Shown: positions 47,532 to 63,647 of the stretch, piece by piece
Numbering within the stretch: position 1 is the first letter of the stretch
How the letters are laid out: each line of letters begins with the position of its first letter
Source of the DNA: Bacillota bacterium
Lineage (GTDB): Bacteria > Bacillota > Clostridia > Oscillospirales > Oscillospiraceae
Assembly (NCBI GenBank): GCA_021770445.1
Contig: JAETQY010000015.1
Span: forward strand, 20,287-84,286
DNA length: 64,000 bases
Reading direction: 5' to 3'
Made by a program: the position numbers and the translations under genes
Notes under the pieces: generated by a model
The model's input: the letters and a program-made list of their open reading frames with translations, nothing else
Told to the model about the DNA's origin: nothing
The model's database searches: none

Positions 47532-47556
47532 AGGGCCGCCTTTGTTGGGCGGCCCT
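47532..47556. terminator. GC-rich hairpin after the small ORF
   Basis: AGGGCCGCC-TTTGTTG-GGCGGCCCT; weak T tract. Confidence 0.5.
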
Positions 47557-47565
47557 AAAAATTTC

Positions 47566-47596
47566 CTTGTATCTTCCGTCGAACTGTGCTATAGTA
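47566..47596 (+). promoter_or_regulatory. 25-nt direct repeat, copy 2, reading as a promoter for the WG-repeat gene
   Basis: CTTGTATCTTCCGTCGAACTGTGCT; TTGTAT - 17 nt - TATAGT. Confidence 0.6.
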
Positions 47597-47898
47597 GGGC
47601 TACGAGGCAAATAAAGGCAGGACGTGGGGTGTTGCGACCACCCCGCGCCCCTATGCGGGAGCGTGTCCTCCCACACAACAGCATTGCTGCGCCAGCCCTC
47701 ATTATACCGGAAAGACCGCCCTTTTACAAGGGGCGGTTTGAGGGTTTGTGTCTGGATAAATGCGGTGTGGGGTCATTGATCCTGCGCCGCTTTTGTTTGT
47801 CTCGGCGGAAAACGCCCCGGAGGGCCGCGATTTCCCGCCCTCCGAGGGTATGTGCCGCTGAGATCATCCCCAAAAACAAAATGAGAGGAAGGAATTTT

Positions 47899-49815
47899 AT
47901 GAAAAAGAAAGCCCTGTCCCTCGCGCTGGCCCTGGTGATGTGCTTGGGGCTGGCCGTTCCGGCCTTCGCGGAGTATACTGTGACCGAGGTCATTCCCTGC
48001 AAGTATAACGCTGCGTATGACTTTTCCGAGGGCCTGGCGGTGGTGTGGGAAGGTGACAAGAAGGGTTACATCGACAAGACAGGCAGGATGGTCCTTTCCT
48101 GCGACGAGTATCGTTCGATAGAGAATTTCTCCGAGGGATTGGCGCGGGTGCGGCGGGATGGCAAGTGGGGTTACATTGATAAAACGGGCCAGGAGGTCAT
48201 CCCCTGCAAGTATGCCTATGCGAAGGATTTTTCCCATGGTGCGGCGCAGGTGCATATTGAGAACGGCAATTATGGTTTCATCGACAAGACGGGCCGGGAG
48301 GTGACGCCTATCAAGTATACCGGTTCGGCTGTAATGTTTATGGGGGATCTTGAAATAAGCGGAGGCCCGGATACTTTCCACGAGGGCCTGGGGGCGGTGC
48401 ATGTTGGAGGAGACGACGACCGCAAATATGGTTTCGTTGATGAGGCAGGCCGGGAGGTGGTGCCTTGCAAGTATGATAATGTAGGATATTTCTCCGAGGG
48501 CCTGGCGGCGGTGTGGCAAGGCGACAAGATGGGTTTCATCGACAAGACGGGCCGGGAGGTTATTCCTTGCAAGTATGAATATAAAGAAGTATACGATTTC
48601 CATGGGGGCCTGGCGCAAGTGTCTCTGGACCTGGACAAATGTGGTCTCATCGACAAGACGGGCCGAGTGGTCCTTCCCCTCAAATATGATCTCAGAGGGG
48701 AGTTCTCCGAGGGCTTGGTGTGGATGTATCAGGGCGGCAAGTATAGCTGCATCGACCAGACGGGCCGTGAGGTCATTCCCCCCATAAAATATGACTTCGC
48801 GAGAGAATTCTCCGAGGGCATGGCGGTGGTGGGCTTTGGAGATATCTTCAAATCCATCCCCTACAAATATGGTTACATCGACAAGACGGGCCGGGAGATC
48901 GTGCCCTGCAAGTATGATGAGGCGAGAGCTTTCCACGACGGCATGGCGATAGTGAGCGTTGGAGCATACGACACCAGAAAATTTGGTTTCATCGATAAGA
49001 CGGGCCGGGAGGTCGTGCCCCCCAAATATGATTCCGTACGGGATTTCTCTGATGGCCTGGCGCAGGTGAGACTGAACGGCAAGTATGGTTATATTGACAA
49101 GACAGGCCGGGAAGTCGTGCCCCTCATATATGATTCCGTGAGTCCTGTAGATGATTTTTCCGATGGCGTGATGAAAGTGGGTGTTGGGGAATACAACGTC
49201 AACAGAAAATGTGGTTATATTGACAAGACGGGCCGGGAAGTCGTGCCCTGCGCGTATGACGACGTAGGCAAGCTCTCTGAGGGCATGGTGTGGGTGAGAC
49301 AGAACTACAAATACGGCTTTATTTCCGTCAGCGGAATCCCCGTCGAGCCGGACCCAGAGCCCACTACCCCCGTCCAGCCCCAGCAGCCCGCCGCTGAGAC
49401 AATCGCCAACCCCACCAACGACAAGCTGGAGGTAAACGGCGCGGCGCAGAATCCCACCGTGTACAAGATCGGCGGCAGCAACTATTTTAAGATTCGCGAC
49501 GTGGCGGCGGTGCTCAACGGCACCGGGAAGCAGTTTGCCGTGGGCTACAGCGGCGGCAAGGTGACGGTCACCTCCGGCCAGCCCTACGAGGCCACCGGCA
49601 AGGAGCTGGCCGGCGCCCCGGCGGCGGCCAAGGAGGCCTCCCCCTCCAACGACGCCATCGTCATCGACGGCGTGGAGACCAGCCTGACCGTCTACAAGAT
49701 CGGCGGCAGCAACTACTTCAAGCTCCGGGACCTGGGCAAGGCCCTGAACTTCTATGTGGGCTGGGAAGCCGGCCAGGGCGTGTACATCGAGACCGACAAG
49801 CCCTACAGCAAATAA
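47899..49815 (+). CDS. Secreted WG-repeat protein with C-terminal stalk (copper amine oxidase N-like) modules
   Basis: Signal peptide MKKKALSLALALVMCLGLAVPAFA; repeated YGYIDKTGREVVPCKYD units; two NPTNDKLEVNG../YKIGGSNYFKIRD modules. Confidence 0.9.
   Translation: MKKKALSLALALVMCLGLAVPAFAEYTVTEVIPCKYNAAYDFSEGLAVVWEGDKKGYIDKTGRMVLSCDEYRSIENFSEGLARVRRDGKWGYIDKTGQEVIPCKYAYAKDFSHGAAQVHIENGNYGFIDKTGREVTPIKYTGSAVMFMGDLEISGGPDTFHEGLGAVHVGGDDDRKYGFVDEAGREVVPCKYDNVGYFSEGLAAVWQGDKMGFIDKTGREVIPCKYEYKEVYDFHGGLAQVSLDLDKCGLIDKTGRVVLPLKYDLRGEFSEGLVWMYQGGKYSCIDQTGREVIPPIKYDFAREFSEGMAVVGFGDIFKSIPYKYGYIDKTGREIVPCKYDEARAFHDGMAIVSVGAYDTRKFGFIDKTGREVVPPKYDSVRDFSDGLAQVRLNGKYGYIDKTGREVVPLIYDSVSPVDDFSDGVMKVGVGEYNVNRKCGYIDKTGREVVPCAYDDVGKLSEGMVWVRQNYKYGFISVSGIPVEPDPEPTTPVQPQQPAAETIANPTNDKLEVNGAAQNPTVYKIGGSNYFKIRDVAAVLNGTGKQFAVGYSGGKVTVTSGQPYEATGKELAGAPAAAKEASPSNDAIVIDGVETSLTVYKIGGSNYFKLRDLGKALNFYVGWEAGQGVYIETDKPYSK
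47980..49350 (+). repeat. WG/KWG-type coding repeats (about 11 plus a degenerate last unit)
   Basis: Repeated (G)YIDKTGREVxPxKYD...FSEGLA units spaced by ~40-60 aa. Confidence 0.9.
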
Positions 49816-49928: not shown

Positions 49929-50062
49929 AACGGGGCGTCTGTGAGGACGCAGTCTGCGATGATGCGGGAGATTGCGGCGAAAGCCGGTAACTTCCGCGGA
50001 GTATGTCCGACGATCGGGCGGCTGAGCGAGTGCTGTACACGGCGTATATCGCCGGGTACGGT

Positions 50063-50200: not shown

Positions 50201-50512
50201 ATGGCTCAGAAAGAAATGATCCGCATCCGCCTCAAGGCCTATGACCACCAGCTCATCGACCAGAGCGCCGAGAAGATCGTGGAGACCGCCAAGCGTACCG
50301 GCTCCAGCGTCTCCGGTCCCATCCCCCTGCCCACCAAGAAAGAGGTGGTCACCATCCTGCGGGCCGTCCACAAGTATAAGGACAGCCGCGAGCAGTTCGA
50401 GCGCCGCATCCACAAGCGCCTGATCGACGTTGTGAAGCCCTCCCCCAAGACCGTGGAGGCCCTGATGTCCCTGGAGCTGCCGGCCGGCGTGGAGATCGAA
50501 ATTAAGCTGTAA
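50201..50512 (+). CDS. rpsJ: 30S ribosomal protein S10
   Basis: [28 protein letters not shown]. Confidence 0.97.
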
Positions 50513-50585
50513 GGCCCCGGCGCATAACCCTGTTGTACCCGCGGTCCGCCGCGTTTTGAGGCGGACGGGTCAAGTCGGCAATAAG

Positions 50586-50696
50586 CCAAATGCGAGCCCA
50601 GCGAAGCGGGTCGCATTTGGAGAGGAGGAGCAAGGGAGCGAGCGCAGTTTTCGCCGTCAGGCGGAAACGGAGTTGAGCGGACTTTGCGACGACGAG
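50586..50696 (+). repeat. Structured ~110-nt intergenic repeat, copy A
   Basis: CCAAATGCGA...TCGCATTTGG stem, GGAGAGGAGGAGC, second hairpin 50648-50667, terminal GCGACGACGAG. Confidence 0.8.
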
Positions 50697-50731
50697 CCGA
50701 CCAATAACCTTTATTAGGAGGAAAATCCGAA

Positions 50732-51460
50732 ATGGAGAAAGCGATCATCGGCAAAAAGATCGGCATGACCCAGATCTTCGATGAAGCCGGCCGGGTGGTG
50801 CCCGTCACCCTGATCCAGGCTGGCCCCTGCACCGTGGTGCAGAAGAAGACCGCCGAGAAGGATGGCTACGAGGCCATCCAGCTGGGCTACCAGGAGACCC
50901 CCGAGCGCAAGCTCACCAAGCCTGAGATCGGCCACCAGAAGAAGGCCGGCCTCACCGAGTACAAGAAGGTCCTCAAGGAGTTCGCTTTGAAGGACTGCTC
51001 CAAGTACGAGGTGGGCGACGTGCTTACCGCCAACGTCTTCGCCGCCGGCGACTACGTGGACGTGACCGGCACCAGCAAGGGCCACGGCTTCCAGGGCGTT
51101 GTCAAGCGCCACGGCGCGGCCGTCAAGCGCAACACCCACGGCGGCGGCCCTGTCCACCGCCATCAGGGCTCTCTGGGCCCCGGCACCACCCCCGGCCACA
51201 TCGCCAAGGGGCGTGACGGCGCCGGCCAGATGGGCAATGTTCAGGTCACCGTTCAGAAGCTGGACGTGGTCCAGGTGGACGAGGAGCTGGGCCTGATCGC
51301 AGTCCGGGGCGCTGTTCCCGGCCCCAAGGGCGGCATCGTCTATCTGAAGAACACCGTCAAGACCATTATTGAGAAGCACGCCACCGAAGGCGGCCGTGTC
51401 AACCCGCAGAAGCAGTCCGCTCGTGTCAACCCGCAGAAGGCTTCCGCCCGCAACAAGTAA
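50732..51460 (+). CDS. rplC: 50S ribosomal protein L3
   Basis: IGKKIGMTQIFDEAGRVVPVT; RHQGSLGPGTTPGHIAKG. Confidence 0.96.
   Translation: MEKAIIGKKIGMTQIFDEAGRVVPVTLIQAGPCTVVQKKTAEKDGYEAIQLGYQETPERKLTKPEIGHQKKAGLTEYKKVLKEFALKDCSKYEVGDVLTANVFAAGDYVDVTGTSKGHGFQGVVKRHGAAVKRNTHGGGPVHRHQGSLGPGTTPGHIAKGRDGAGQMGNVQVTVQKLDVVQVDEELGLIAVRGAVPGPKGGIVYLKNTVKTIIEKHATEGGRVNPQKQSARVNPQKASARNK

Positions 51461-63393: not shown

Positions 63394-63647
<254 letters not shown>

Follow-up and report, generated by a model that had tools for sequence, protein, structure and literature searches.

The window analysed here, a stretch of 64,000 nucleotides from an Oscillospiraceae genome, holds two versions of a structured repeat in the gaps rpsJ-rplC and infA-rpmJ. 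The question raised by this locus is what such a repeat is, and how it came to stand between ribosomal-protein genes. A first-pass annotation had proposed selection for structure, acting either on a REP/MITE-like mobile repeat or on a structured RNA family. This proposal is supported by the number of copies, by a negative Rfam search and by empty sites in relatives. Between its two readings, the evidence leans towards a mobile element that folds as single-stranded DNA, with an RNA role also possible.

Two copies in the window

Copy A extends from 50586 to 50696 on the plus strand, as delimited by sequence comparison, covariance-model match and fold alignment, and lies between rpsJ (50201–50512) and rplC (50732–51460). 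Its 3' end, GACGA, is a fixed junction, of which the last base (50696) may be target-derived. Copy B, located in the infA-rpmJ gap by repeat-family and covariance-model matches (63394–63501), is also on the plus strand, in agreement with the annotation; its junction is filled in five other genomes as well.

Hairpin 1 of copy A (50586–50620, plus strand; predicted fold, helix 1 of the alignment) reads CCAAATGCGA-G-CCC-A-GC(GAA)GC-GGG-TCGCATTTGG. The claim that the stems CCAAATGCGA/TCGCATTTGG of copy A and CCAAATCGAA/TTCGATTTGG of copy B pair around the core GCCCAGCGAAGCGGG was confirmed. The second hairpins likewise pair as described, with a wobble at the identical position that holds across the family (T.G in 83 of the 105 sequences with letters in columns 74/113). 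Fold and alignment place the apical hairpin 2 of copy A, GTTTTCGCC(GTCA)GGCGGAAAC, at 50647–50668, and the outer helix 2 at 50622–50635 (5' strand GAGGAGGAGCAAGG, with tandem G.A steps) and 50682–50694 (3' strand CTTTGCGACGACG), all on the plus strand. The shared blocks GAGGAGGAGC and GCGACGACG, described as borders, do bound the element; beyond this they pair with each other as the opposite strands of a single outer helix. Folded as RNA, the sense strand gave z-scores of -4.2 for copy A and -3.3 for copy B; the complementary strand of copy A reached only -1.1.

A dispersed family with a conserved fold

The genome containing the window (2.64 Mb in 79 contigs, 94.5% complete) yielded 23 BLAST matches (E no higher than 1.2e-8 for 18) and 28 matches to a covariance model, R1, built from 16 of its own copies; the similarity between copies A and B is thus not due to chance. 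The genome-wide covariance search suggested by the annotation returned hundreds of copies across the order. The element was found in 22 of 24 genomes of the same genus, with 2–57 copies each, and order-wide sampling gave matches at E 1e-5 or better in 44 of 149 genomes (27 of 87 genera), which were weaker outside the taxonomic family.

When 112 copies were aligned to R1, 97.3% of 3603 cells were standard pairs; the alignment is fitted to R1 and hence biased towards its fold, but slid versions still drop to 35–40% paired. Both sides had changed at 32 of 34 pairs (14 of 15 in helix 1), with 898 double-sided changes in total. The covariation score of 0.674 compares with 0.062–0.108 for slid controls and was reached by none of 500 shuffles. 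Selection for pairing is strong, and one strand of the element adopts a fold of two hairpins. The outer helix GAGGAGGAGC/GCGACGACG consists of tandem G.A/A.G steps flanked by G-C pairs. Its middle pair is standard in 210 of 214 copies (G-C in 178, C-G in 30), and the inner G.A tandem is exchanged for Watson-Crick steps in many copies (GA/TC in 32, AA/TT in 6, CC/GG in 5). Above this helix, GGA/GGA-type internal loops alternate with two pairs.

An Rfam search had also been suggested, with a match to a known family as the outcome that would count against the proposal; the element matched none at the gathering score, either in the window or in a sample of other element loci. No paper on the element or its sequence blocks was found in the literature. 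A plasmid search gave no match, a phage search gave matches in two unannotated faecal contigs, and 19 matching stretches in viral contigs may be host flanks. In complete genomes, no replication-strand bias was obvious by eye. With its fold and dispersal established, the element appears to represent a previously uncatalogued family in Clostridia, about 110 nt long, non-coding, non-autonomous and interspersed, in which shape rather than sequence is conserved. It would add a large set of folded repeats for a group missing from the REP survey (PMC3733652).

Insertion between rpsJ and rplC

The empty-site comparison proposed by the annotation covered 30 rpsJ-rplC gaps. The element is present only in the genome of the window, and 29 of 29 relatives are without it; copy A is, on this comparison, a lineage-specific insertion. 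In the relatives, the gap contains a conserved leader with an AAGTYGG...CCRACC hairpin, and copy A occupies the loop of this hairpin. Comparison of the relatives' gaps places the left arm AAGTCGG at 50572–50578 and the right arm CCGACC at 50697–50702, directly 3' of copy A, both on the plus strand. As the AAGTCGG/CCGACC stem around it is intact, copy A need not disturb the operon.

The leader itself (50534–50721 in the window, and loci L279–L307) has the form GTACCCGCGGTCC...GGACGGGTCAAGTYGG...CCRACCAATAACC...AGGAGG, with covarying stems in all 30 relatives examined. It had no Rfam match at the gathering score and is a candidate for a new ribosomal-protein leader. A further repeat family, GGA-rich and distinct from the element, GAGCCGTTGTGAGCAGCGCGGATGGACCGGAGCGAGGGATA...GAGTCGGAGGGAAGCC...GGCGAGGCGTGACAA, is found in the rpsJ-rplC gap of several genomes (L280, L289, L291–L293, L296, L300 and L304), and also downstream of tpiA (L253 and L269).

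Placement at gene ends and a possible role as RNA

Insertions cluster at gene 3' ends and at tRNA and tmRNA ends. Only 7 of 243 copies are inside open reading frames, and only one divergent gap holds the element. The upstream gene is co-directed with the element in 94 cases and opposed in 30. In the genome of the window, several copies adjoin tRNA 3' ends in antisense orientation. At the tpiA end, the element occupies one junction in five genomes (G010, G008, G019, G072 and G060) and is missing from more than 20 others, very close relatives included; occupancy of the ilvC end is similarly patchy. The element offers a tractable case in which to study how such small sequences can enter essential gene ends harmlessly. 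In three genomes (L035, L064 and L217), a TnpB-like gene also has a copy at its 3' end.

The co-direction with the upstream gene would also be expected of a structured RNA that acts in cis within 3' untranslated or intercistronic mRNA, selected by the host for processing, stability or partial termination; dispersal would then be old, and the duplications that flank many copies (see below) would be by-products of recombination. The strong folding of the sense strand as RNA is consistent with this, as are the copies that share one junction in six genomes at infA-rpmJ and in eight at the ssrA 5' end, where stems differ but are compensated. Against it stand the 29 relatives without the element between rpsJ and rplC, the patchy tpiA and ilvC ends, and the reversed orientation of copies such as those at tRNA ends. 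The loops depart from the GNRA rule of RNA, and there is little wobble pairing. As a full account of the family, a host RNA of this kind is rather unlikely. The two readings are not exclusive, and a host RNA function alongside mobility is possible: the orthologous copies at infA-rpmJ and ssrA, which keep their pairing in several species, could reflect a host function and would then speak against a purely mobile element.

DNA or RNA as the folded form

Stable RNA loops favour a purine at the third position. Among the GNNA tetraloops of both hairpins together, GNRA (49) and GNYA (67) sequences show no such preference, which points to DNA. Of 240 copies, 134 end hairpin 1 in a triloop of the c(GNA)g type. 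In copies A and B the tip is d(GCGAAGC), a solved DNA hairpin (PDB 1KR8 and 1PQT; PMC5430850). Outside the one conserved wobble column, G.U was found in about 77 of roughly 3400 paired cells of the 112-copy alignment. The loop types and the scarcity of wobble are indirect signs, rather than proof, that favour single-stranded DNA as the folded form. The family provides a tractable case in which to ask whether selection has favoured folded single-stranded DNA, with GNA mini-hairpins and tandem G.A helices, as a form for recognition.

Duplicated gene ends

About 25 copies are located between two versions of the 3' end of the upstream gene, mostly 25–107 nt long. Often an intact gene end precedes the element, and the second version starts directly at the element 3' end, a precise junction. 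The genes concerned, named from their translations, include tpiA, smc, pgk, ilvC, ffh, xthA and that of formate-tetrahydrofolate ligase. At 24 loci, the two versions differ by 70 synonymous and 20 non-synonymous changes (p = 3e-27 against neutrality), 13 of the latter falling in two loci. Since the differences are mainly synonymous, the downstream version is not an old decaying relic. For the same reason, a simple target-site duplication as the sole cause of the flanking repeats was ruled out. Most probably, an element-bearing allele from another strain brought the upstream version with it, or both ends have been used. A decayed case is seen at tpiA in G017, where the downstream copy is gone.

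Related arrangements were encountered at two loci. Four tandem 230-bp units follow a flagellin-like gene (L148, G017:C1:324150-324948), each composed of a gene end, a terminator and the element. In G015 (L354, G015:C28), two versions of the uvrB 3' end enclose a structured insert of another kind, immediately upstream of a RAYT gene, which suggests that gene-end duplications are not confined to this element family.

Candidate enzyme and mechanism

Mobility of the element is well supported by the above. An even chance is given to the explanation that it is non-autonomous and REP-like and travels as folded single-stranded DNA, with RAYT-type transposases acting in trans. One strand would fold into two hairpins as single-stranded DNA, a Y1/HUH transposase of the RAYT type would cut and join this form in trans, and insertions would persist since they leave the host gene with an intact end.

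The part of RAYT as the moving enzyme is inferred from the genomes. Seven members of the genus encode diverged RAYT-like proteins; the three tested against NF047646 gave E-values of about 1e-19 to 1e-20, with scores 6–11 bits short of the NCBIfam cut-off. In G011, the start of the RAYT gene lies four bases beyond the duplicated smc end that adjoins an element copy, and in G008 two copies lie about 0.7–1.1 kb upstream of the RAYT gene. By a rough estimate, the chance of two of seven RAYT genes being this close to copies is about 0.006. The five other RAYT genes are not near element copies; the one in G015 follows the duplicated uvrB end, with the different insert between. In the genome of the window, no Y1/RAYT protein was found with the Pfam model, nor with a RAYT profile in the approximately 1.0 Mb searched. 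The Pfam model found no Y1 transposases in G000 or G010; the genome of the window and G010 are both copy-rich. Clustering of the open reading frames around 243 copies gave no recurrent neighbour gene, hence no neighbouring transposase, the large clusters being the element itself or shared housekeeping loci. A reverse transcriptase acting in trans was rejected, as RVT_1 is absent from G000, G010 and G020, which contain 27–32 copies each.

Insertion of the IS200 type makes no target duplication; the gene-end duplications therefore need another cause. In 11 of 23 duplicated copies, the linker before hairpin 1 contains an antisense stretch of about 12 nt that could pair with the junction region, against 6% in mismatched controls (score of 9 or more). 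It is mostly centred on the junction and lies 5–11 nt before hairpin 1. This segment could serve as a guide, form an RNA stem or have arisen by fold-back. As a guide, it would pair across the target junction and direct the joining of the 3' end of the folded scaffold there, carrying the recoded gene end along by an RNA- or single-stranded DNA-based route. Such guided homing is consistent with the frequency of the segment, with the use of the same junction of the same gene in several species and with the mainly synonymous differences between the two gene ends. It is nonetheless improbable: about half of the duplicated copies are without the segment, reverse transcriptase is absent from the copy-rich genomes, and the segment could be a fold-back product or inherited with the allele. 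At tpiA it accompanies the element, and G042 has it too, with no element. Slightly more doubtful still is the fuller proposal of a guided homing cassette that moves as one unit, made of a rescuing recoded gene end, a junction-spanning antisense guide and a conserved folded scaffold recognised in trans by some enzyme. If true, it would be a natural targeted insertion that leaves the target gene intact. Target choice is open to direct testing in the gene-end duplications that carry a junction-spanning antisense segment.

A further reading is a site-specific recombination site, attC-like or of another kind, on which a tyrosine or serine recombinase would act in its folded DNA form. The one-strand fold with extrahelical bases, the placement after genes and the cargo gene duplicated with the ilvC end in G044, where that end is duplicated again, would fit this reading. 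It is nonetheless very improbable, as there are as a rule no cassette arrays and serine recombinase genes near five of 243 copies are not telling. No RYYYAAC/GTTRRRY attC core is apparent in the conserved columns.

Comparison with known repeats

The RAYT-driven movement preferred here invites comparison with REP and REPIN sequences, whose transposase is RAYT (TnpA_REP). REPs are defined as palindromic hairpins of 20–40 nt, associated with RAYT and tagged by GTAG or CGTC (PMC3733652). Like them, the element is short, non-coding, dispersed, hairpin-forming and mostly between genes, in high copy number (2–57 per genome; 7 of 243 inside open reading frames), and has a RAYT gene beside copies in two relatives (G011 and G008). 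Its end GACGA contains CGTC when read on the other strand, which recalls the CGTC-tagged REPs, though some of it takes part in outer-helix pairing. Unlike a REP, it is about 110 nt long with two different tandem hairpins in place of a 20–40 nt palindrome, has no conserved GTAG and comes from a genome in which no RAYT was found. The element thus fails the REP definition on size and on the GTAG tag.

The RU elements of enterobacteria are an example of small mobile repeats or MITEs (PMC2229807, PMC2759123). The element resembles such repeats in its size class (about 100–170 bp) and in being non-coding, intergenic and non-autonomous; it differs in having neither terminal inverted repeats that frame the whole nor a short fixed target duplication, its duplications being 25–107 nt long with mainly synonymous differences.

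With the S10-Clostridia leader (RF03136) the element shares a covarying fold in a ribosomal-protein operon, but it is dispersed and matches no Rfam family. That leader is itself present in the window, upstream of rpsJ (49951–50013) and separate from the element. Further upstream, a long open reading frame (47542–49815) encodes, as read from its translation, many repeats of about 30 residues (GYIDKTGREVVPCKYD...), WG-repeat-like, followed by repeats around YKIGGSNYFK.
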